NCBI GenBank assembly: GCA_029246105.1
Contig: JAQWOA010000006.1
Coordinates: forward strand, 1 to 64,000
DNA: 64,000 nucleotides
Source of the DNA: Woeseiaceae bacterium
GTDB taxonomy: Bacteria; Pseudomonadota; Gammaproteobacteria; Steroidobacterales; Woeseiaceae
Direction: 5' to 3'
In this document: positions 2,493 through 14,588 of the stretch, piece after piece
How the letters are laid out: every line of letters begins with the position of its first letter
Numbering within the stretch: position 1 is the first letter of the stretch
Translations under genes and position numbers: made by a program
The notes under the pieces: model-generated
Database searches by the model: none
What the model was told of the DNA's origin: nothing
Seen by the model: only the letters and a program-made list of their open reading frames with translations

Positions 2493-5255
2493 TCAATAGC
2501 CACTCTGCTTTGATTTGATGGCAGCCAACACGCGATCTGGGCTCGCCGGTAGATCGCGGATCACTGCGCCAGTTGCACGCCGGATGGCATTTAGAATTGC
2601 CGGCGCAGTACCGACAAGCACATGCTCACCTAAACCTTTAGCACCGTATGGACCATGTGGGTCTGTTTCTTCGATAAATAATGTTTCGATTTCTGGTACA
2701 TCACCAGCAGTAGGGATCAGGTAATCATGGAGATTATTAGTTTTTCCAGGTACAAATTTTTCCATTAATGCCATCCCAATGCCCTGCGCAACGCCGCCAT
2801 GAACTTGACCCTCAGCTAGTACAGGGTTTATGACTTTCCCAACATCATGGGCGGCAGTGACTTTTATGAGCTTGGTTGTTCCTAGCGCAGTATCTACAGA
2901 TAGTTCAACCATCTGTGCTCCGTAGCCAAATGAAGCATAAGGCTCTCCTTGACCATCCTTGTCGAGGGGCTGCGTTGGAGGATCATATGTTTCTTCGGCT
3001 GTCGCAATGAAGCCATTTTGATCAGCTGGCAAACTATCAAGCTGCAACTTATATGTACTATTTTCTGCAGAGGCAAGCAGTGTATTTCCATTGAGCTGTA
3101 AACGAGCTGATATTGGCGCATTGCAAATTTTGAGTAGTTTATTTCGTAAGACGTTCCCAGCCAGAAATGCTGCTTTGCCTGAAATAAACGTTTGCCTTGA
3201 TGCCGACGTTTTTCCGGCGTCTGCTGTTAAGTCAGTATCGCCATAAACTAAATCGAAACAGTCAATCGAAATACCTATAGCATCGGCGCAAATTTGGCTA
3301 ATAACCGTGTTTGATCCTTGACCAATATCGATCGCCCCTTGAAATAAAATGACACGCCCATCATTTCGCAATGCCACCCGTATAGTTGATGGGTTGGGTA
3401 ATGATGTATTGCCACATCCGTACCATAAGCCGGCAATGCCAACACCAAAACGCATCGGAGTGTTCTGGGCTGATTCGTTACGCATTTCAGCGTTACGAAT
3501 GGCTTGCTGCCATTGTGGTCGCAACGCTTCAAGACACGCAACAATACCAACGCCACTATCAAAGCGTTGTCCTGTTGCTGTTGGCAAACCGTTTACAAGC
3601 GCATTACGAACTCGAAATTCGAGTGGATCAATTTTCAATTTCTCAGCGAGGAGGTCAAACAGTGTTTCCTGTGCAACAGCAGATTGCGGTACACCGAACC
3701 CTCGAAAAGCACCTGATGGAGGGCAATGCGTATGTATTGCAGCAGACTCAGCGCGGTAGTTTTCAATACGATACGGCCCACACGCATGAATTGGCACACG
3801 ATTGGCAACCGTTGGCCCCCAGGATGCATAGGCGCCGGTATTAAATATACCGTCGAACGTCATTGCTACAATTTTGCCATCCTTGCTGGCGCCTATCCTA
3901 GACTGAATACTGGATGGATGGCGCTTCGTCGTTGATAGCATCGATTCGGTACGTGAATACACCATCTTTACTGGCTGTTTCAAATGCCACGCAGCTATCG
4001 CCACAAATGGCTGCAGCGACAGATCTAGTTTTGAGCCAAAACCTCCACCTACTGATGATGGAATGATTCGGACTTGGTCTTCCGAAATATTCATAATCTC
4101 GGCTAAGCTACTTCTATCCATGTATGGCGCCTGCGTGCAGGACCATACTTCAATTCGATCGCCAATTCGCTGCGCGAAGGCCGCTTCGGGTTCAATGTAA
4201 GCATGCTCAATAAATTCAGTTGTGAAAGCGCCCTCCACTACGACGTCGGCGGCTTCGAAACCGGATTGCACGTCACCGCTTTCTACATATCCACCGGTCA
4301 AGCGATTATTCGCACGCCCTTCATGTAGCTGTGGCGCACCTTCATCAGTAGCTTCATTTGCGGTAGTGACGTCCGCCAGCTTTTGCCACGTTATCGGCAG
4401 CTTCGATATATTTAGAGTAACGATGTCATCGGTAGTGCCAACGACAAGTGCTACTGCTTCACCCTCAAACCGTGTTTCGGATTCGGCCAAGACTGGCTGG
4501 TCAACAAATTCCGGAATCACACCAAAGCAATTTCGTCCTAGAACATCCTTGGCTGTGTATACGGCGACCACTTCATCCGTTTTGTTTACATACGCATCGA
4601 GATTCCCGAACGAAAAGGCGGCATGTGGATAAGGACTGCGAATTGCTATTGCATATAAAGCATCGTCTGGCCAGTCATCGGCTGCAAACAGGTCTGAACC
4701 AGCGACTTTTGGCGCTCCATCTAAACGGATGATCGGTTCACCAACTGAGCTTTTGTTCTCAGTAGAATGTGGTGCTGAGTGATTTTCTGGCACGTTCGCA
4801 TTGACGATGGCATGAATAATATTGCGATAACCGGTGCAACGGCAAAGTACTCCGCCAATAGCGTTTTCCGCTTGTTGTTCACTGGGATGCGGTATACGTC
4901 GTAATAATGCCTCAGCTGCAACTATCATGCCGGGCGTGCATATTCCACATTGAGCAGCGCCGTATCGTAGGAAGGATTTTTGCAAATTCCCTTTTGCAAC
5001 ACTGCACCCATTTTGCAAGCCTTCAACGGTTTCAATATTGCAACCATTAGCTTGTTGTAAGGCCATCATGCAGGCACAAATGGGCTTATTGTCGACTAAG
5101 ATTGTGCAGGCGCCACAGTCACCTGCATTGCAGCCAACTTTAGTGCCGGTAAGTCCAAGTTCTTCTCGTAATACTCGCGAAAATCGCGTGCCTGCTTCTG
5201 CGTCAACGCTGATCGATTCGCCGTTAAGCTTAAAATTGATCTTTGAGGCATTCAT
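2493..5255 (-). CDS. Xanthine dehydrogenase-family molybdenum hydroxylase: N-terminal 2x[2Fe-2S] subunit fused to molybdopterin subunit; putative nicotinate dehydrogenase
   Basis: GCNAGDCGACTILVDNKPICAC, QCGICTPGM and CRCTGYRNI [2Fe-2S] motifs, then a Moco domain with GGGFGSK, GAFRGFG and a GAKGLGEH active-site Glu region. Nicotinate assignment is from context. Confidence 0.85.
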   Translation of the reverse strand: MNASKINFKLNGESISVDAEAGTRFSRVLREELGLTGTKVGCNAGDCGACTILVDNKPICACMMALQQANGCNIETVEGLQNGCSVAKGNLQKSFLRYGAAQCGICTPGMIVAAEALLRRIPHPSEQQAENAIGGVLCRCTGYRNIIHAIVNANVPENHSAPHSTENKSSVGEPIIRLDGAPKVAGSDLFAADDWPDDALYAIAIRSPYPHAAFSFGNLDAYVNKTDEVVAVYTAKDVLGRNCFGVIPEFVDQPVLAESETRFEGEAVALVVGTTDDIVTLNISKLPITWQKLADVTTANEATDEGAPQLHEGRANNRLTGGYVESGDVQSGFEAADVVVEGAFTTEFIEHAYIEPEAAFAQRIGDRIEVWSCTQAPYMDRSSLAEIMNISEDQVRIIPSSVGGGFGSKLDLSLQPFVAIAAWHLKQPVKMVYSRTESMLSTTKRHPSSIQSRIGASKDGKIVAMTFDGIFNTGAYASWGPTVANRVPIHACGPYRIENYRAESAAIHTHCPPSGAFRGFGVPQSAVAQETLFDLLAEKLKIDPLEFRVRNALVNGLPTATGQRFDSGVGIVACLEALRPQWQQAIRNAEMRNESAQNTPMRFGVGIAGLWYGCGNTSLPNPSTIRVALRNDGRVILFQGAIDIGQGSNTVISQICADAIGISIDCFDLVYGDTDLTADAGKTSASRQTFISGKAAFLAGNVLRNKLLKICNAPISARLQLNGNTLLASAENSTYKLQLDSLPADQNGFIATAEETYDPPTQPLDKDGQGEPYASFGYGAQMVELSVDTALGTTKLIKVTAAHDVGKVINPVLAEGQVHGGVAQGIGMALMEKFVPGKTNNLHDYLIPTAGDVPEIETLFIEETDPHGPYGAKGLGEHVLVGTAPAILNAIRRATGAVIRDLPASPDRVLAAIKSKQSGY

Positions 5256-6100
5256 TTAAGGGCATCTACACATGAAAGAATCGCTCGTCGTACTAATTCT
5301 GCTGTGGCCTCTAATCGATACTGACCACTGGAGCGAATATCATCGATCGGCGATAGTGGTTCAAAGAATTTTGCCGCATGCGGTAGGCGACTCATTTGTT
5401 GAAGCTGGCATCCCTTCAGCTTGGCTTCCAGGTCACGTAAGCGACACGCGACCGCTGAACATGATCCAACGCTTATACTGATGTTTTCGATTGAGTTATC
5501 GCTGCTCGGCTCAAGTACCACTGCAACCATGGAAATAGAAATAACCAGATATTTTCGAGAGCCTAGTTTTAAGAATGAACTTACACTTCGTTCGCTAGAC
5601 TTAGGAACCAGCACTGCAGACATTAATTCTGTTTCAGTTAAAGCAGTTTGCCGTGGTCCAGTGATAAAGTCTTTCAAGCCTAAAATTCGTCGACCGTTAG
5701 TTGATGATAACTCCACGCTGGCATTCAATGCCATTAAGGGCGGCACACCATCTGCCGCAGGTGATGCATTACACAAATTGCCAGCAATTGTGCCAGCGTT
5801 CTGAATCTGGATTCCTCCCACTTCGCAGGCCGCTAATTTCAAACAATCAAACGATTTAGGTAAATTTGCAGCCATCACATCAGACCATGTTGAGGATGCT
5901 CCAATTCGCCAGTGATCTCCAACATCTTTAATGCCAACCAAATCTGGAATTGCTGTTACATCGAGAACATTGTCCAAACTATTGTGATCACCCAAGGCTG
6001 CATAGACATCAGTGCCACCGGCAAGCACTTGCCGAGGGCTTTGACCGAGGAGCATGAGTGCCTCATCGAGGTTGTCGGGACGTTCGTAACTTTGCCGCAC
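5252..6100 (-). CDS. FAD-binding subunit of molybdenum hydroxylase (CoxM/NdhF-like)
   Basis: LAGGTDVYAAL, GGIQIQNAGTIAGNLCNASPAADGVPPLMALNA; overlaps the upstream end of the Moco subunit gene. Confidence 0.9.
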   Translation of the reverse strand: MRQSYERPDNLDEALMLLGQSPRQVLAGGTDVYAALGDHNSLDNVLDVTAIPDLVGIKDVGDHWRIGASSTWSDVMAANLPKSFDCLKLAACEVGGIQIQNAGTIAGNLCNASPAADGVPPLMALNASVELSSTNGRRILGLKDFITGPRQTALTETELMSAVLVPKSSERSVSSFLKLGSRKYLVISISMVAVVLEPSSDNSIENISISVGSCSAVACRLRDLEAKLKGCQLQQMSRLPHAAKFFEPLSPIDDIRSSGQYRLEATAELVRRAILSCVDALK

Positions 6101-6110
6101 TATTTACCTT

Positions 6111-7304
6111 TTATTTTTCTAAACTCGCTAGCGTTTCAGCGGGGGGTGTATTTCGCGAGCGTTGACAGCGAACAACTCCATCAATAATAACCATACTGAT
6201 GCCGGGTAAATCACCTAGTGCAACACTATCAAGAAGCGTATCACCGGCAGAATGCTGTGCACGATCCATGATGACAAAATCAGCTACACGACCAATTTCA
6301 ATCAAGCCGCAATTAAGTTCTCTGATTCGGGCGGTATTGCCTGTCGCAAAACAGAACACAATCTCAGGCGCTACGTTGCCCATCGAACTAAGCATTGCAA
6401 TTAGCCGTAAAATGCCGAGTGGTTGAACCCCAGAACCCGCTGGTGAGTCTGTTCCTAGACTGATGCGCTCAGCCTGATCGAGTTCTATTGTCGTGCGCAT
6501 AGCATATAGACCAGCTACTTCATTACCGTTGTGTACAATCTCGACAGCTCGCGTACAGGACTCACAAAGGCATCGAATCTGATCAATCGGTAGTGCTGTG
6601 GGTCCACCATTTATGTGTCCGATGACATCGGCATCAGCTTCAAGAACAACATCCGCATCAATAAGACTAGAGCCTGGAATCGAGGGACCGCCAGTGTGGA
6701 TGGTGCTTTTAATGCCATATTTTCTCGCCCAGGCAACCATTTTTTTAGCTTCTTCACCATTTTTGACACTACCCAGTCCTACTTCACCGAGTAATTTTAC
6801 GCCAGCGTCTGCTAGTTCTTTGAAATCATGTTCCTCCATGCCCTGTTCGAGGATTGGAGCTCCAGCATGTACTTTGACACCGCCCGGTCTGTGTCTTGAA
6901 AAAGAGCGTTGTGCAGTAATGGCCAGTGCTTTCAGGCCAACAATATCTTTGGGGCGTCCGGGCAAATGGACTTCACCAGCTGAAATCATTGTCGTAACTC
7001 CGCCATTTAGATAGCTGTCAATCCAATCAATCTGGTTTTGCCGTGGTGTCCAGTCGCCGACCACAGGATGCACATGACTATCAATCAATCCAGGTGCAAC
7101 GCAGGTTCCGTTAGCGTTGACAACTCTGTCAGCATTCTCAGTATCAAGTTCTGAATAGCGACCAATATCAGTGATTACACCATCGACGACGATGATTGTA
7201 TCCGCATCCAAAATTGGTTGTGTCAGATCACCCGATAGTAATAATCCAATACCCCGAATTACAAGCTTGCCTTGTGGATTTGTTTGCCCTTGAAATAACT
7301 CCAC
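6111..7304 (-). CDS. ena: Enamidase-like amidohydrolase (1,4,5,6-tetrahydro-6-oxonicotinate hydrolase)
   Basis: Recalled similarity to E. barkeri enamidase along the whole length: GLIDSHVHPVVGDWTPRQ, GGVTTMISAGEVHLPGRPKD, IKSTIHTGGPSIPGSS, IGHINGGPTALP, and C-terminal GDLPGISMVIIDGVV..SRNTPPAE. Confidence 0.85.
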   Translation of the reverse strand: MELFQGQTNPQGKLVIRGIGLLLSGDLTQPILDADTIIVVDGVITDIGRYSELDTENADRVVNANGTCVAPGLIDSHVHPVVGDWTPRQNQIDWIDSYLNGGVTTMISAGEVHLPGRPKDIVGLKALAITAQRSFSRHRPGGVKVHAGAPILEQGMEEHDFKELADAGVKLLGEVGLGSVKNGEEAKKMVAWARKYGIKSTIHTGGPSIPGSSLIDADVVLEADADVIGHINGGPTALPIDQIRCLCESCTRAVEIVHNGNEVAGLYAMRTTIELDQAERISLGTDSPAGSGVQPLGILRLIAMLSSMGNVAPEIVFCFATGNTARIRELNCGLIEIGRVADFVIMDRAQHSAGDTLLDSVALGDLPGISMVIIDGVVRCQRSRNTPPAETLASLEK

Positions 7305-7332: not shown

Positions 7333-7917
7333 CTAGCGAAGCCCATCTTTTCCGATTGCATCCGCTTGCGTTAGTCCGCCAACGCGAGGAAGCGGTCGAC
7401 CGCTGTCCGTCACGGCAACCGCGACCAAAATTTCATTAGATCTAGGACCATCGTTTAGGCTTACTTCCATAGCATCAAAGTGGCTACGAACATGCGCAGC
7501 ATCTTTGTGCCCGAGTGGAATATCAATTGTTGTTCCAACTCCCCCCATTTTTTTTGACGATGGAATGAGTGCAGCACCTTGTTGAACAGCTGAACGCAAT
7601 GGCTTACCAAGGCGAGGATGCAGAATTGCCGCGGCATGTTCTAGCTCTCCATCAACACCAACGATAGCAGCTTTACCGAAGCTCTCAATTTCCGACGGCT
7701 CCACTCCCAATGCAGCAACAGCTCGACTACCGAGGAGGTCCCCTAGCTCTGCACCGATTCGCATCAAAGCCTCGAGGTCTTCGACAAATTTTCCTGCACA
7801 AGGATTCTCGATTACCGCGAACGCTGCTGCCTTTCTCGTCACTGGATTCACCACACAACCCATCTCTTTGCAGGTGTCCTCAACAACAACTAAAATCTTT
7901 CGTATATCCGCATTCAT
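7333..7917 (-). CDS. DUF1185 / AA_synth (PF06684) family protein, paralogue A
   Basis: FGKAAIVGVDGELEHAAAILHP...PSSKKMGGVGTTIDIPLGHKDAAHVRSHFD; overlaps the adjacent paralogue by 4 bp. Confidence 0.82.
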   Translation of the reverse strand: MNADIRKILVVVEDTCKEMGCVVNPVTRKAAAFAVIENPCAGKFVEDLEALMRIGAELGDLLGSRAVAALGVEPSEIESFGKAAIVGVDGELEHAAAILHPRLGKPLRSAVQQGAALIPSSKKMGGVGTTIDIPLGHKDAAHVRSHFDAMEVSLNDGPRSNEILVAVAVTDSGRPLPRVGGLTQADAIGKDGLR

Positions 7918-8495
7918 CGTAAACCGTCCTCTCCAATGATATTACTTGCCTGCAAACCACCCATTCGTGCGTGGATGCGAGAGCCGGTCGCCATAGCCAA
8001 GCAAAATACCAATTCGTCTGGTCTGGGCGCATCAGGTACTTGCAGCGGTAATGTATGGAAATGATTTCGTACATACGCAGCATTGGTATGCGCCAGTGGA
8101 ATGTCTATTGTAGCGCCGACCGGCCCAACTTTTTTTGTGGATGGAACAATAGCCCGTGTTTCGCCAAGTACTTGACGCATACCGTAACCACCTGGGGAAT
8201 GCCAGAGTGCACCATGCTCGAGTTCGCCATTAACACCTACAATGCAGCCTTTTCCATATGCCTCGATGTCGTCAGGGCCACAGTTCATCGCTTCTAATAA
8301 CTCATTCGCAAGTTGTAGACCCAGTGGCTCCAAATCTTTCATGGCAGGCTCTAGGATTTCGACATACTGGCCTGCGAAGGGGTTGCTTACTATTCCACAG
8401 ATTCCACCCAAAATTAATGGCTTATCTTTAGGTGGTCCGAATTCATGATTTGAACGATCTAGCGTAATGACGATTTTTCGCACATTAAAATTCAT
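7914..8495 (-). CDS. DUF1185 / AA_synth (PF06684) family protein, paralogue B
   Basis: YGKGCIVGVNGELEHGALWHSPGGYGMR...PSTKKVGPVGATIDIPLAHTNAAYVRNHF; clearly paralogous to the adjacent ORF. Confidence 0.82.
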   Translation of the reverse strand: MNFNVRKIVITLDRSNHEFGPPKDKPLILGGICGIVSNPFAGQYVEILEPAMKDLEPLGLQLANELLEAMNCGPDDIEAYGKGCIVGVNGELEHGALWHSPGGYGMRQVLGETRAIVPSTKKVGPVGATIDIPLAHTNAAYVRNHFHTLPLQVPDAPRPDELVFCLAMATGSRIHARMGGLQASNIIGEDGLR

Positions 8496-9409
8496 TATTT
8501 ATCAATTCCTTTGTATTCATATGGCCAACCTATCGTACGACTATGTCCCTGCAGGCTTATGAAAACACCGTAGAGCTCAGGTTCTTTTATCAAGGTTCGG
8601 GTGAATTTCGCTCCACGATCAAGAGCATTATCAATTGCTTGTTTTTGTAATGCTCCTACATTCATCGTGACCAGTCTTTCTCCAAGATCACTGTCAGGAT
8701 CAATGTCCAATGCTCGAGCTCGATCGACGCATTTAGCATCACAATCGACTTCATTTGCGATCAATGTTGCTACCGTATCAGCAATCGCCGCATTTTTTGC
8801 GAGAACAGTCACGGCATCAGCAATACCCAGAGACATTGAATGGCCATTCCAACCACTGGTCGCGATACCACATATACCATCCTCGCTTGTGATTTCCACT
8901 GATGCATTTAATTGTGCTGTTGAGAGGGAAGGTACAATACCAATATTCATTTTCTGGCCAGGCTCGAGGTGCAAAGCGATATCGCCACCATTATTAACAA
9001 AAACACTATCCAGCCCATTTACATTTTTCATTGCAGCCAGAACCTCATCCGCGACCGCGCCGGCTACAGCTGCCATGGGTGTGATGAAATAATCTCTATA
9101 TTGTCTGACAGTTGAAATCATATGTTGCGATGTAGCGTCATCTATCCTTCTATTATCTATAATGTACAGAGGTGATCGCAGTAGCGATAGGTTATCAACC
9201 AGTCCTTGTAGCATTCCTTCCATGCGTTGTGCTGCAAAGGCATAAGCATGCTGCACACTTTTAGCATCACCTATTGCTTTGATGACGAGGTTGATTGGTC
9301 CATGCTGTAAATGAAGACGATTACCGGACAGCATTGCTTTTTGCACTTGTCCAGATGGCCATGGTTGAAGCTGAGCATCAGGAATCCTGCAAATTGTGCT
9401 TGAATTCAT
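8495..9409 (-). CDS. UPF0280 family protein (ApbE-like superfamily)
   Basis: LQHGPINLVIKAIGDAKSVQHAYAFAAQRMEGML...ITPMAAVAGAVADEVL...VFVNNGGDIALHL...GIATSGWNGHSMSLGIADAVTVLA. Confidence 0.82.
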   Translation of the reverse strand: MNSSTICRIPDAQLQPWPSGQVQKAMLSGNRLHLQHGPINLVIKAIGDAKSVQHAYAFAAQRMEGMLQGLVDNLSLLRSPLYIIDNRRIDDATSQHMISTVRQYRDYFITPMAAVAGAVADEVLAAMKNVNGLDSVFVNNGGDIALHLEPGQKMNIGIVPSLSTAQLNASVEITSEDGICGIATSGWNGHSMSLGIADAVTVLAKNAAIADTVATLIANEVDCDAKCVDRARALDIDPDSDLGERLVTMNVGALQKQAIDNALDRGAKFTRTLIKEPELYGVFISLQGHSRTIGWPYEYKGIDK

Positions 9410-9416
9410 GAGCAGA

Positions 9417-10949
9417 TCACTTCAGCGGCCAAGGGTTCTTGGGATTCCAGCTGTTACTCTGCGCACTGTCGCCATAGTAGTCGCGGATTTCCTCCAATGA
9501 CTGAATGAAATCGACATGACCACCCATTGCAGTATACCGGTCTCTAGATAACGTAAATTCTATTGGCGCTACTATTGCCGGTGTCGGTACATAGCCAAAG
9601 GAATTTTCTGGCATACGTGTAACATCGACCATAATTGTGATGCCACCACCAGGCCACACATAGACCGGTGCACCACCCATGGTGACTCGTGTTAATGTCT
9701 CTTTGACAGATTGGGTTAAGCTTATTGGGTTCTCGGTGACGCCAGCGCGTAGTGATCCGCCAGCACCACCAACAAATAATACTGAGCATAGTGATGGTTC
9801 GCAGTTTTCTCGAATCCGGTCAACAACAATTTGTACAGCATCTGGCATCGCTGCCTTCACTGGCTGCAATTTTTCATCGAGAACGCAATAGATGCTTTCT
9901 TCACCCGTTGTAGTGGTCATCAATACCCGACTTCCCGAGCATGCAACATTATCATCGATTGATTCAATTATAGAAAATGGGTCATTGATGTCTGTGCCGC
10001 CCCATCCCTGACCAGGATTTGCAACGTTGAAATATCGACCGGGCGTTGAGCGGCGTCCGCGAATACGAATACCGGAGGGTTTCATTCCAAGACAACGCCC
10101 AGCCTGATGCTCTGATAGAACTCCAGTAATATGTTCGTCAATGACAATGACTTCATCTACATGGCCATGCCACTGCTCTGCGAATATGCCAATTGTTGCT
10201 GAGCCACAACCGACACGCATATGCTTTTCGGGGACACCATCAATAATGGGCGCATGTCCTGCTTGCACCACCATAGAGCAGCCTCCAGCAACGACAAGCT
10301 CAACTGGCTGACGATTGCACAGTGCCATAATGGCGTTGCAGGTTACCTTACCCTCTCGTTTGCTGCCGCCCGTGAGGTGATTAACTCCTCCAAGGGATAA
10401 CATTGGTGATCCATATTCGGTGGTCGTTACATGCCCAATGCGTTGCCCATCGCAAAGAACATCTGCTTGTTCGGCACCAAGGTGTTTATCTGTATCCAGT
10501 TTAATTTTCACGCCGCAATACGAAAAGATACCCTCACTGACCACTGTTACAGTTTCAACTTTGTCGTACTGTGTTGCTACAATAAATGGTGCTGGTTTGT
10601 AGTCGGGATAAGTTGTACCTGCACCGATGGCAGTAACGAATGTTCCTTGTTGAATCAGATTGCCGTCCCATTCGCTCGAGGAGTCTACAAACGGGACAAC
10701 CTCGCTATCGGAATCAAGTGAGTTTTCGAGAAGCACCAGCGGATCAACACGCGCGAGCTCACCTTTAACGTTGGCATAGCGCCCACAAGCTCCAGACCGC
10801 TCTGGTCTGATCCGGCAAAGTACTGGGCAGGCATCACAACGCACTATGCCATCTTTTTCACGAGCGCCGAAGCGTTCGGTCATACTGGGAATACCAGTTG
10901 GTTTGCTCGACTTCTTGTCGGCGCTGGGATTATTCTTTTCAGTCGCCAT
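9417..10949 (-). CDS. hnr: 6-hydroxynicotinate reductase (Fe-S flavoenzyme)
   Basis: Cys motif RCDACPVLCRIRPERSGACGRYANVKGELARVDPLVLLENSL; Hnr-like full length. Start set to ATG at 10949 (MATEKNNPSADKK) rather than the ORF-track start at 11111. Confidence 0.85.
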   Translation of the reverse strand: MATEKNNPSADKKSSKPTGIPSMTERFGAREKDGIVRCDACPVLCRIRPERSGACGRYANVKGELARVDPLVLLENSLDSDSEVVPFVDSSSEWDGNLIQQGTFVTAIGAGTTYPDYKPAPFIVATQYDKVETVTVVSEGIFSYCGVKIKLDTDKHLGAEQADVLCDGQRIGHVTTTEYGSPMLSLGGVNHLTGGSKREGKVTCNAIMALCNRQPVELVVAGGCSMVVQAGHAPIIDGVPEKHMRVGCGSATIGIFAEQWHGHVDEVIVIDEHITGVLSEHQAGRCLGMKPSGIRIRGRRSTPGRYFNVANPGQGWGGTDINDPFSIIESIDDNVACSGSRVLMTTTTGEESIYCVLDEKLQPVKAAMPDAVQIVVDRIRENCEPSLCSVLFVGGAGGSLRAGVTENPISLTQSVKETLTRVTMGGAPVYVWPGGGITIMVDVTRMPENSFGYVPTPAIVAPIEFTLSRDRYTAMGGHVDFIQSLEEIRDYYGDSAQSNSWNPKNPWPLK

Positions 10950-11089: not shown

Positions 11090-11401
11090 TTGGAATACAT
11101 AGGCACATCAATGCCTGATAGGCTTAAAGATGAATCCAAAATCGAGACATTAACCCGTATGAATTTCAAGTCTAATAAACATCAACATCGTTCATTCTGG
11201 TGGCGTGTTTGCTGCGGTATCGCGATAGCGCTCTCTGCCATAACTTTTACACCACTTGTCATCGGTGATCATGCATCTCGTATTTTTCATCTTCCTTACT
11301 TGTTAGCGGTTGGCTTAATTCTTGCGATCGCGTTTATCGCAATAACAATTGCTGGCACCTTCTTTTATCCAAAATCTCTTGATCGTGGCGACAAAAAGTG
11401 A
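11090..11401 (+). CDS. Small membrane protein (two predicted TM helices), probable partner of downstream symporter (DUF3311-like)
   Basis: Hydrophobic segments WWRVCCGIAIALSAITFTPLVI and LPYLLAVGLILAIAFIAITIAGTFFY; stop overlaps the GTG start of the next gene. Start could also be 11111 or 11159. Confidence 0.6.
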   Translation: MEYIGTSMPDRLKDESKIETLTRMNFKSNKHQHRSFWWRVCCGIAIALSAITFTPLVIGDHASRIFHLPYLLAVGLILAIAFIAITIAGTFFYPKSLDRGDKK

Positions 11402-12816
11402 GTGGGTGGATATTAGGGATTGGCACTGTATATCTTTGTATGTTGGTTACTGCTGCACTTCGCGCTCGCAAATCAAACCATTCTGACAATGATTTTCTCT
11501 TAGCTGGATCAAGTCTTGGATCGCTTGTTGGATGCTTAACGGTCGCCGCTACACTATTTAGCACATTCACGTTGATGGGTATGCCAGATCTGTTTCGTAA
11601 TCATGGCATTGGCGCCTGGATTTTTCTTGGTGTTTCTGACTGCGCACTAGCATTCGTTGCTTTGTGGTTCGGTATTAATATTCGCCGCCGAATTTCGGCG
11701 GATAACTTCAATGGATTTTCTGATTGGTTGGGACGAGCATACCGTGGCCGCCATGCGACGTATGTCTACTTGTTTGGCATTTTTGTTTTCCTGATCCCCT
11801 ATGTTGCGATTCAGATAAAAGGAGTTTCATTATTTTTGAATTCGATAATGCCGGGTGTTATGCCAAGTTGGGCCTGGTCAGTTTCAATAGTCAGTGTGAT
11901 TCTTGCTTATAGTGAATTAGGTGGCCTCAAAGCCATAATTTTTGCAGATGCTGTTCAAGGTCTGGTGTTGTTTGGTGCGACTATTGTTATTGCAATAAGT
12001 TGTGTGGCCTATTTTGGTGGTATTGGACCCATGTTTGATTCGATTGAATCGACTTCGCCGGCACTCTTATCAACCCCTGGTCCATCTGGGTTATTCACCT
12101 ATCAATTTCTCATAGCTTCATTTTTGGCCATCGCAATGATTCCGGTGACACAGCCACAAATGAGTACTCGCTTGATTATTATGCGTGATAGTTCGTCGCT
12201 TGCTCGAATGGCCGTATTACTTGCTATATTTTCTTTCGTACTCGTACTCGCAACATTGCCGATTGGTCTTTATGGCGCTGCGCTCTACCCAACTAGTGCG
12301 ACGGGGGAATTCATAGCGCAAGTCCTGGTATACGATCAATCACCGATTGTCGCTGCTGTGGTTGTAGTTGGACTGATTGCAGCTGCCATCTCAACGGCAG
12401 ACTCGCAACTGTTTGCGCTAGGGAATGAGTTACGTTCAGGTGTATCCAAACCACAATATCAATCATTGAGATTAATGCGTAGTGCAATTGTGATATTTGC
12501 GCTGTCGGCACTGGTGGTTTCATTAGTGAGCAATACACATATCGTTTTATTAGCACGAACCAGTTTTGCTGGATCAGCATTGCTCGCACCCATGATATTG
12601 TCAGCTGTTTTCTTTCCAAAGCAATTGCATCGCGCTATTCCGTTGTTGGTTGGCTTGTGTTTAATTCTATTTCTCGCATCCATTTTTGGTTTGATAGGTG
12701 ATACTTTTTGGGGGCTGCGTATGGATCTTGTGATGTTTATAGCGGTTACGTTTGGCACCGCAATAATTTTGATGTTCAAAAATCACTATTTGCCTGATGA
12801 GCGAAAATCTTCATAA
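11398..12816 (+). CDS. Sodium:solute symporter (SSS) family transporter, putative nicotinate uptake
   Basis: DNDFLLAGSSLGSLVGCLTVAATLFSTFTLMGMPDLFRNHG..., SELGGLKAIIFADAVQGLVLF, AAAISTADSQLFALGNE; substrate inferred from context. Confidence 0.8.
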   Translation: MSGWILGIGTVYLCMLVTAALRARKSNHSDNDFLLAGSSLGSLVGCLTVAATLFSTFTLMGMPDLFRNHGIGAWIFLGVSDCALAFVALWFGINIRRRISADNFNGFSDWLGRAYRGRHATYVYLFGIFVFLIPYVAIQIKGVSLFLNSIMPGVMPSWAWSVSIVSVILAYSELGGLKAIIFADAVQGLVLFGATIVIAISCVAYFGGIGPMFDSIESTSPALLSTPGPSGLFTYQFLIASFLAIAMIPVTQPQMSTRLIIMRDSSSLARMAVLLAIFSFVLVLATLPIGLYGAALYPTSATGEFIAQVLVYDQSPIVAAVVVVGLIAAAISTADSQLFALGNELRSGVSKPQYQSLRLMRSAIVIFALSALVVSLVSNTHIVLLARTSFAGSALLAPMILSAVFFPKQLHRAIPLLVGLCLILFLASIFGLIGDTFWGLRMDLVMFIAVTFGTAIILMFKNHYLPDERKSS

Positions 12817-12833: not shown

Positions 12834-13319
12834 TTAGGTTAATCGTGCTAGTAATCGTAAAAAAATCTTTTGTTCATTCATAGTCAATGGCAGAAGTGTT
12901 TCTTTAGATACCTGGTGAGCTGCAGTTTCTAGCGACTCAATTAACTCGAGTCCTTTGGTAGTTAATGTGAGTACAGATTTTCGTTTATCAATCGGATCAG
13001 TCGTTTTTTGGATAAATTGACGTTGAACTAGGCGATTCACAATACCCATAATTGTCGCGGGATCCGTATGGTTAAGTCGACCAAGTAGGTTTTGAGATAC
13101 GCGACCTTGATCACGAATTTTCACTAATGAAGTAAATTGCATTGGGGTCAGTCCGCTATCGATAAAGAGTGTCTGGAAAATACCACTTGATCGTTGATGG
13201 GCGCGCCGTAGAAGAAATCCAGCTTGCTTCTCTACTATGTACAACTGATGCTCCTCCTTTAAAGATAGCGATGGCCTCTCGTCACTGTTTTTTTTATTAA
13301 TTGCTATAGATTTGTCCAT
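12834..13319 (-). CDS. MarR family transcriptional regulator
   Basis: LTPMQFTSLVKIRDQGRVSQNLLGRLNHTDPATIMGIVNRLVQRQFIQKTTDPIDKRKSVLTLTTKG winged-helix signature. Confidence 0.9.
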   Translation of the reverse strand: MDKSIAINKKNSDERPSLSLKEEHQLYIVEKQAGFLLRRAHQRSSGIFQTLFIDSGLTPMQFTSLVKIRDQGRVSQNLLGRLNHTDPATIMGIVNRLVQRQFIQKTTDPIDKRKSVLTLTTKGLELIESLETAAHQVSKETLLPLTMNEQKIFLRLLARLT

Positions 13320-13321
13320 TG

Positions 13322-13663
13322 CTAGTCAGTATCGCCGGGCTCTTCACTAAAGTAACGCTCAAACTTATTCTCTTCATTTCGAAATTCATCGGCATCCACC
13401 GGCGATACTCCTTTTCGCGTGATATTTGGCCACATTTCAGAGTATTTCGTATTCACTTCCAGCCAAAATTGGTCCGGCGTATCTTCATCATCAGGCTTGA
13501 TCGCTTCAACTGGGCATTCGGGCTCACAGACGCCACAGTCAATACATTCATCTGGATGAATGACCAAAAAGTTTTCGCCCTCGTAAAAACAATCAACCGG
13601 GCATACCTCCACACAATCCATTAATTTGCACTTCACGCATGGATCAGTAACGATAAAAGTCAC
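13322..13663 (-). CDS. fdxA: 7Fe/8Fe-type ferredoxin
   Basis: [55 protein letters not shown]. Confidence 0.95.
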
Positions 13664-13751: not shown

Positions 13752-14588
13752 TCAGCCGACGAAAGCCCGTTCAACTACAAAACTTCCTGGGGCAGAATTA
13801 CTACCTTCTTGGAGTCCATGCTCTTTGAGCATGGAAGCCATATCTTTGTTAAACGCCATTGAGCCGCAAACCATTACTCTGGCAGTTAGTGGGTTAAATC
13901 GATTTCCGATCAATCCAAGGTCTTTAGCGAAATCACCAAGCTGTATACGGTCTGTAATTCTGCCTTGTGTTCTGAATTCACCACGCGTAACCGTTGGATA
14001 GTAAGTAAATCGATCTCGCAATAACTCTCCAAAGATCTCATCAGCATGGATTTGCTCTTCCAAAAATTCACGGTAGGCAAGTTCCTGTTCTTCCCTGACG
14101 GTATGCGTGAGAATGATTTCATCAAATTTTTCATGAGTTTCAGGATCACGTAAAACGGAAAGGAAAGGAGCCAAGCCTGTGCCAGTTCCGATCATAAATA
14201 GACGTTGACCAGACTTAAGCGCATCTGTAACCAATGTGCCGGTTGGTTTTTTGTTTAGGAACAGGTAATCACCAACTTTTAAATGCTGTAAGCGGGACGT
14301 CAGAGGTCCTTCTGGAACTTTAATTGAGAAAAATTCGAGGTGTTCTTCCCAATTGGGACTAACGATGGAATAAGCTCTTAATAGAGGACGATTGCCATCT
14401 TCAAGCCCGATCATCACAAACTCACCAGAGCGAAAGCGAAAACTATCCGGGCGCTCGATGCGAAAACTAAACAAACTATCTGTCCAATGATGCACCCAGG
14501 TTACTCGCTGTAGGAAAAGCTTTTTTGCTTCAGCTATAGCCTGCAAATCTATTAATGTTGAAGATTCTTTGGGTTTTTCTTGACTCAT
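13752..14588 (-). CDS. fpr: Ferredoxin-NADP+ reductase
   Basis: RPLLRAYSIVSPNWEEHLEFFSIKVPEGPLTSRLQ...MIGTGTGLAPFLSVLRDPETHEKFDEIILTHTVREEQELAY...CGSMAFNKDM...FVVERAFVG. Confidence 0.95.
   Translation of the reverse strand: MSQEKPKESSTLIDLQAIAEAKKLFLQRVTWVHHWTDSLFSFRIERPDSFRFRSGEFVMIGLEDGNRPLLRAYSIVSPNWEEHLEFFSIKVPEGPLTSRLQHLKVGDYLFLNKKPTGTLVTDALKSGQRLFMIGTGTGLAPFLSVLRDPETHEKFDEIILTHTVREEQELAYREFLEEQIHADEIFGELLRDRFTYYPTVTRGEFRTQGRITDRIQLGDFAKDLGLIGNRFNPLTARVMVCGSMAFNKDMASMLKEHGLQEGSNSAPGSFVVERAFVG

Follow-up and report, generated by a model that had tools for sequence, protein, structure and literature searches.

The window analyzed here is the whole 64,000-nucleotide stretch at positions 1 to 64,000 (forward strand) of contig JAQWOA010000006.1 from a Woeseiaceae bacterium (assembly GCA_029246105.1). 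On its minus strand, a gene encoding a homolog of 6-hydroxynicotinate reductase (Hnr) is followed by a gene of the UPF0280 family, which is the same family as COG2122. We conclude that the UPF0280 protein is very probably a dedicated maturation partner of Hnr. The features of the two genes that bear on this conclusion are the following.

9417-10949, minus strand: hnr, 6-hydroxynicotinate reductase homolog of 510 amino acids, 42% identical to the Hnr open reading frame of Eubacterium barkeri
10785-10838, minus strand: Hnr C38-x2-C41-x3-C45-x9-C55, invariant wherever the alignment reaches this region (53-54 Hnr)
10194-10208, minus strand: Hnr C248-G-S-A-T252, in which C248, G249, S250, and A251 are invariant and T252 is variable
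8495-9409, minus strand: UPF0280/COG2122 protein, long form, 304 amino acids, ApbE superfamily (NF003322, E=1.5e-94)
9059-9079, minus strand: UPF0280 P111-MAAVA-G117, aligned with D-[LI]-G-G/A-I-A-K-G of ApbE, with the Asp and Lys lost
8981-8989, minus strand: UPF0280 G141-G-D143, as in ApbE, at the FmnB Asn216 position (57/57)
8840-8860, minus strand: UPF0280 T184-S185-G-W-N-G-H190, in which T184-S185 correspond to FmnB Thr256-Ser257 and H190 is at the FmnB Arg262 position
8765-8779, minus strand: UPF0280 D211-x3-T215, the ApbE Mg-binding motif (FmnB Asp301/Thr305), each residue 57/57

The hnr reading frame runs from an ATG at 10949 to a stop codon at 9417-9419. An alternative upstream TTG at 11111 would give a protein of 564 amino acids, and the ATG appears preferable because it fits the homologs. 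Profile searches with the window protein named no Pfam or NCBIfam family. Its assignment as a 6-hydroxynicotinate reductase is based on homology to the Hnr encoded at L052:1830-3329 of the E. barkeri nicotinate gene cluster, where the enamidase matches the 2VUN sequence at 100% identity, and on the enamidase and molybdenum (Mo) hydroxylase genes nearby. Unlike E. barkeri Hnr, the window Hnr lacks an N-terminal 2x[4Fe-4S] ferredoxin domain. Residues C38, C41, C45, and C55 are probably iron-sulfur (Fe-S) ligands, and C248, C383, H273, and H281 are likewise invariant (each 59/59). Hnr is taken here as a cytoplasmic enzyme. An AlphaFold2 model of Hnr, built from 9 sequences, was of low confidence (predicted local distance difference test score [pLDDT] of 63) and gave no significant match in Foldseek. 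Two Hnr showed a weak resemblance, below the cut-off (E ~0.008), to GCV_T_C, the glycine cleavage T-protein barrel, at residues 146-180 of the window Hnr (~10410-10514) and 161-233 of the E. barkeri Hnr, and T-protein matches for the Hnr model in Foldseek were of low probability.

A sequence-only reading of this DNA had proposed that Hnr and UPF0280 form a maturation pair and that the two genes should be checked for co-occurrence across genomes. We searched 399 Pseudomonadota and 300 Bacillota genomes for Hnr and NF003322. The 38/399 Pseudomonadota genomes with full-length Hnr are identical to those with long-form UPF0280 (Fisher p ~5e-54; three short partial Hnr matches and two weak NF003322 matches left out), and the same holds for 11/300 Bacillota genomes (Fisher p ~3e-20), where the long form was defined by a score above ~180 bits to NF003322. 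These p-values do not correct for phylogeny, and since the genes also move together as a cluster, the values express the tightness of the pairing rather than a number of independent events. One Bacillota genome (G665) contains two Hnr and two UPF0280, with the second pair ~3.2 kb apart.

The pairing extends to gene order. In the window, the UPF0280 gene starts 7 bp after the hnr stop codon (gap 9410-9416, both genes on the minus strand), as the sequence-only reading had it. In all 29 loci measured, hnr and UPF0280 are on one strand, mostly with gaps of <100 bp; the exceptions are a few gaps of 160-325 bp and one locus (L032) with a MarR match between the two genes. In E. barkeri, the start of UPF0280 overlaps the hnr stop or directly adjoins it. 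Across the anaerobes identified by name (E. barkeri, E. aggregans, Acetobacterium bakii, Anaerotruncus, and others), the remaining genes are reordered, and hnr and UPF0280 stay together wherever the contig covers both. UPF0280 is the sole gene that adjoins Hnr in every examined locus with contig coverage, whereas the Mo-hydroxylase, enamidase, and AA_synth genes relocate or are missing. At one locus (L038), only Hnr, UPF0280, Mo-hydroxylase, and MarR were found among the tested genes. Evolutionary distances of Hnr correlate with those of UPF0280 at r=0.73, compared to 0.13-0.56 when Hnr is set against XDHM or one of the two AA_synth proteins. No fusion of UPF0280 with Hnr or DUF39 was found. 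Thus, the proposed pair stands as a dedicated one: it is one-to-one in two phyla, adjacent on the same strand, and present in the E. barkeri cluster itself.

The remaining UPF0280 proteins follow a different enzyme. In Bacillota, short-form UPF0280 (<=92 bits to NF003322) and DUF39 (PF01837) occur together in 98 genomes, compared to 4 with the short form only and 1 with DUF39 only. The short form is therefore accompanied by DUF39 in 98/102 genomes, and three of the four short-form-only matches look fragmentary (G646, G661, and G669). By contrast, short-form UPF0280 and Hnr are distributed independently across Bacillota (p=0.75). A. bakii has both forms, the short one adjoining DUF39 and metH and the long one adjoining hnr. 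E. barkeri lacks DUF39, which leaves Hnr as its only known UPF0280 client. UPF0280 thus falls into a long and a short form, each with a single partner enzyme. The COG2122 proteins of the DUF39 pathway (MA1715, DvMF_0044, and 2O34, which is DVU1097) are of the same family and fold as the window UPF0280 (2O34 profile E=4.7e-15), share its PMAAVAG, GGD, and AD..AT motifs, and also track one enzyme nearly one-to-one. They differ in length: Hnr-type UPF0280 is long (~280-300 amino acids) and mostly has TSG-x-G-R-S, whereas the short form has ~245-265 amino acids.

The window UPF0280 scored 316.3 bits against NF003322 (cut-off 290; residues 23-294) and belongs to that family; it is not a canonical ApbE, with 20.8 bits against Pfam ApbE (PF02424; cut-off 25.6). 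Its placement in the ApbE-like superfamily was borne out by hhalign (probability 91%, E=1e-6) and by Foldseek. The predicted model (pLDDT 82.6) matched 2O34 best (E=5e-10), then FmnB (E=6e-5), ApbE, and Ftp, with probabilities of 0.9-1.0 for the ApbE/Ftp structures (FmnB included) and global template modeling scores to ApbE of merely 0.3-0.5. The model clearly points to an ApbE-type T-fold related to ApbE, FmnB, and Ftp. Residues were matched to FmnB, whose residue roles served as reference (PMC8906456), by sequence alignment and not by superposed coordinates. D211, T215, D143 of GGD, and S185 are each invariant (57/57), and the FmnB Arg262 position is Arg in 54-55/57, with His in the window protein. 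UPF0280 therefore has in common with ApbE, Ftp, and FmnB the fold, the Mg-site Asp/Thr, GG[DN], TSG with the active-site Ser, and Arg at the Arg262 position; it differs in the absence of the HH[IL] loop, the AKG Lys, and a clear export signal. The single lipobox-like match among 56 UPF0280 is internal and without an ApbE-like hydrophobic stretch. No invariant Cys was seen among Hnr-type UPF0280. A Mg-diphosphate site is plausible from these residues. Of the ApbE active site, UPF0280 retains the Mg/diphosphate half and the Ser and lacks the catalytic His and the Lys.

Canonical ApbE is absent from part of the Hnr-containing genomes. No ApbE above the Pfam cut-off was found in 17/38 Hnr-containing Pseudomonadota, 16 of which are at least 99% complete; the other is the genome of the window itself (88% complete). 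Canonical ApbE is present in E. barkeri and in the six other nicotinate-cluster genomes tested (7/7). These ApbE have a lipobox in 4/7 and a hydrophobic N-terminal stretch in the other 3, which implies that they are probably exported; that of E. barkeri has the lipobox LGGC and is predicted to be an exported lipoprotein. E. barkeri has no cytoplasmic ApbE candidate other than UPF0280.

The pair is surrounded by the following genes.

7914-8495, minus strand: AA_synth (PF06684/DUF1185) protein 1 (E=4.3e-63), whose start overlaps the UPF0280 stop
7333-7917, minus strand: AA_synth (PF06684) protein 2 (E=3.7e-71)
6111-7304, minus strand: enamidase homolog, for the step after Hnr (2VUN E=2e-114, end to end)
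5252-6100, minus strand: Mo-hydroxylase FAD (flavin adenine dinucleotide) subunit, nicotinate dehydrogenase-like (PF00941 E=1.3e-37)
2493-5255, minus strand: Mo-hydroxylase chain of 920 amino acids, a fusion of the 2x[2Fe-2S] and Mo domains, from a profile search

Together with hnr, these genes appear to cover the initial three reactions of nicotinate catabolism as in E. barkeri (Mo-hydroxylase, Hnr, and enamidase). The E. barkeri cluster has in common with the window the hnr-UPF0280 adjacency, a Mo-hydroxylase, an enamidase, and an AA_synth homolog, which follows ena at L052:11191-11772. In the window, the Mo/Fe-S hydroxylase subunit is fused and there are two AA_synth genes, whereas E. barkeri has separate small, large, and medium subunits. 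Published structure work assigned the AA_synth family to amino-acid metabolism (PMC2954203); a role in nicotinate breakdown seems more likely here. Possible electron donors for the window Hnr are encoded 2.4 kb upstream of its gene, namely a ferredoxin (13322-13663) and a flavoprotein resembling ferredoxin-NADP reductase (13752-14588). A sodium:solute symporter (SSF; 11398-12816, plus strand), divergent from hnr, may be the transporter that takes up the substrate. A MarR regulator is encoded at 12834-13319, and MarR homologs are <10 kb from hnr in most of 20 proteobacterial loci.

For the chemistry of maturation, the leading mechanism is that UPF0280 attaches flavin to Hnr, to which we assign a probability of about 0.45. 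It is the best mechanism because of the fold, the kept residues, the lack of other candidates, and the covalently bound flavin that purified E. barkeri Hnr reportedly carries, according to a 2006 abstract by Alhapel and co-workers. In this mechanism, Hnr would be the client and UPF0280 its dedicated maturation factor inside the nicotinate-catabolism cluster. UPF0280, as a divergent cytoplasmic protein of the ApbE superfamily, would bind FAD.Mg and link the flavin, probably as a phosphoester of flavin mononucleotide (FMN), to a conserved Ser or Thr of Hnr that is not Thr252. The covalent flavin would then pass electrons from the Fe-S clusters to 6-hydroxynicotinate. We infer the client-maturase relation, flavin as the transferred group, and the type of acceptor alike. 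A similar logic applies in Klebsiella pneumoniae, where a cytoplasmic ApbE matures a soluble fumarate reductase (PMC12052999). Unlike UPF0280, that enzyme is a canonical ApbE acting on Dxx[ST]GA[ST], a motif that Hnr lacks.

Several observations weigh against flavin attachment. The catalytic-His loop YHH[IL]..P.TG.P of ApbE is absent from UPF0280 (HH[IL] in 0/96, compared to 7/7 canonical ApbE); FmnB Asp184, Lys190, and the entire loop around His273 are without counterpart; and PMAAVAG replaces DLGGIAKG, so that the Asp and Lys are gone. The usual base is absent, and FMN transfer by UPF0280 is possible but not readable from the sequence. The authors of a study of COG2122 judged that its homology to ApbE seems to miss the flavin-binding region, and they proposed that it acts in persulfide chemistry (PMC5764234); moreover, the other client family, DUF39, is tied by the literature to sulfur transfer. 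Covalent flavin is reported for Hnr of E. barkeri only, and our literature search returned no paper linking Hnr to covalent flavin and no match for the name UPF0280. Hnr-enamidase distances correlate at r=0.93 (8 loci only), above the value for Hnr-UPF0280, and co-evolution alone is therefore not specific. Finally, the relaxed ApbE acceptor motif D-x-x-x-[GAS]-A-[ST] is in none of the Hnr scanned, and Thr252 is dispensable by conservation. The sequence-only reading had named this residue, in VGCGSATIG (Thr codon at 10194-10196, as it reported), as a possible flavin acceptor on a weak motif match. Among 59 Hnr, position 252 is Thr in 53, Ala in 4, and Ser in 2. The Ala252 Hnr (L031/L046, L049, and L130) belong to three lineages, namely one gammaproteobacterial genus, G285, and the Bacillota genome G648, all of which keep UPF0280 alongside; hence, Thr252 was rejected as an obligate acceptor. 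Candidate acceptors are instead the invariant Ser/Thr of Hnr, which in window numbering are T135, S143, T153, T176, S181, S250, S301, T319, T347, T348, and S399.

The main rival, which we consider somewhat unlikely, carries over the DUF39 literature: UPF0280 would be a dedicated Hnr partner with a sulfur or Fe-S role, in that it delivers persulfide or assembles clusters, and the covalent flavin would form without it. The sequence-only reading had described UPF0280 as having no assigned function, which does not hold, since, on genetic evidence, the DUF39-dependent synthesis of homocysteine needs COG2122 (PMC5764234). In Desulfovibrio vulgaris, COG2122 is needed for methionine/homocysteine synthesis, its mutants require methionine, and the fitness patterns of COG2122 and DUF39 correlate at r=0.98 (PMC5764234). 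Methanosarcina MA1715 is required at low sulfide (PMC5764234; PMC12068725; PMC9431491) and has been termed a sulfur trafficking protein (PMC12068725). The missing ApbE catalytic His and Lys and the Fe-S nature of Hnr, with its six invariant Cys, fit such a role. However, the Hnr reaction involves no sulfur transfer, the lack of an invariant Cys in Hnr-type UPF0280 is awkward for a persulfide carrier, and the invariant ApbE-type Mg and Ser residues would have no obvious need.

Alternatively, Hnr could attach the flavin to itself through an 8alpha bond to one of its invariant His or Cys residues (e.g., H273, H281, C248, or C383), with UPF0280 as a flavin/nucleotide-binding chaperone or loose subunit that loads FAD non-enzymatically. 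The invariance of these four residues, the lack of an ApbE acceptor motif in Hnr, and the loss of transfer residues from UPF0280 with retention of the Mg/nucleotide half of the pocket are all consistent with this alternative. Self-flavinylation alone would leave an obligate ApbE-fold partner in two phyla unexplained, and we regard the alternative as quite doubtful. It is very improbable that UPF0280 is a generic neighbor co-transferred with the cluster and acting elsewhere in nicotinate breakdown (e.g., with AA_synth or the Mo-hydroxylase): these genes are also usual in the cluster, but UPF0280 alone is constantly beside Hnr, and its short form tracks the single enzyme DUF39, outside nicotinate metabolism.

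Flavin attachment by UPF0280 could extend to both forms. UPF0280/COG2122 would then be a cytoplasmic flavin-transferase branch with two clients, in which the long form matures Hnr and the short form matures DUF39/HcyS, DUF39 is an unrecognized covalent flavoprotein reductase, and the acceptor in Hnr differs from that in DUF39. We consider this extension unlikely as it stands. DUF39 proteins share a conserved D-x-[YF]-[LIV]-G-[AVC]-T (L092:1432-2616 and neighbors; L163-L182), in which the final Thr is present in 47/53 and replaced by Asn in 5 and Ala in 1; this is near the ApbE motif as quoted in PMC12052999. As proof of flavinylation the motif was set aside and is a lead only, since the Thr is Asn or Ala in 6/53 and the likeness was spotted post hoc. 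Shared ancestry of Hnr and DUF39 was also rejected: no signal was found in hmmsearch in both directions or in hhalign, where probabilities of 0.2-0.3% were no better than those of reversed or column-shuffled controls, and a look-alike VDVVT..T..P...SG stretch in the two proteins is within chance.

If correct, flavin attachment by UPF0280 would identify the maker of the covalent flavin of Hnr, a question that to our knowledge dates from 2006, and would extend the flavin transferases by a cytoplasmic branch that lacks the catalytic His; the two-client extension, if true, would explain the requirement of COG2122 for homocysteine synthesis. Desulfovibrio requires COG2122 to make homocysteine and Methanosarcina requires it to use sulfide efficiently, and the obligate pairing of the long form with Hnr, which reportedly carries covalent flavin, provides a concrete clue to its chemistry.

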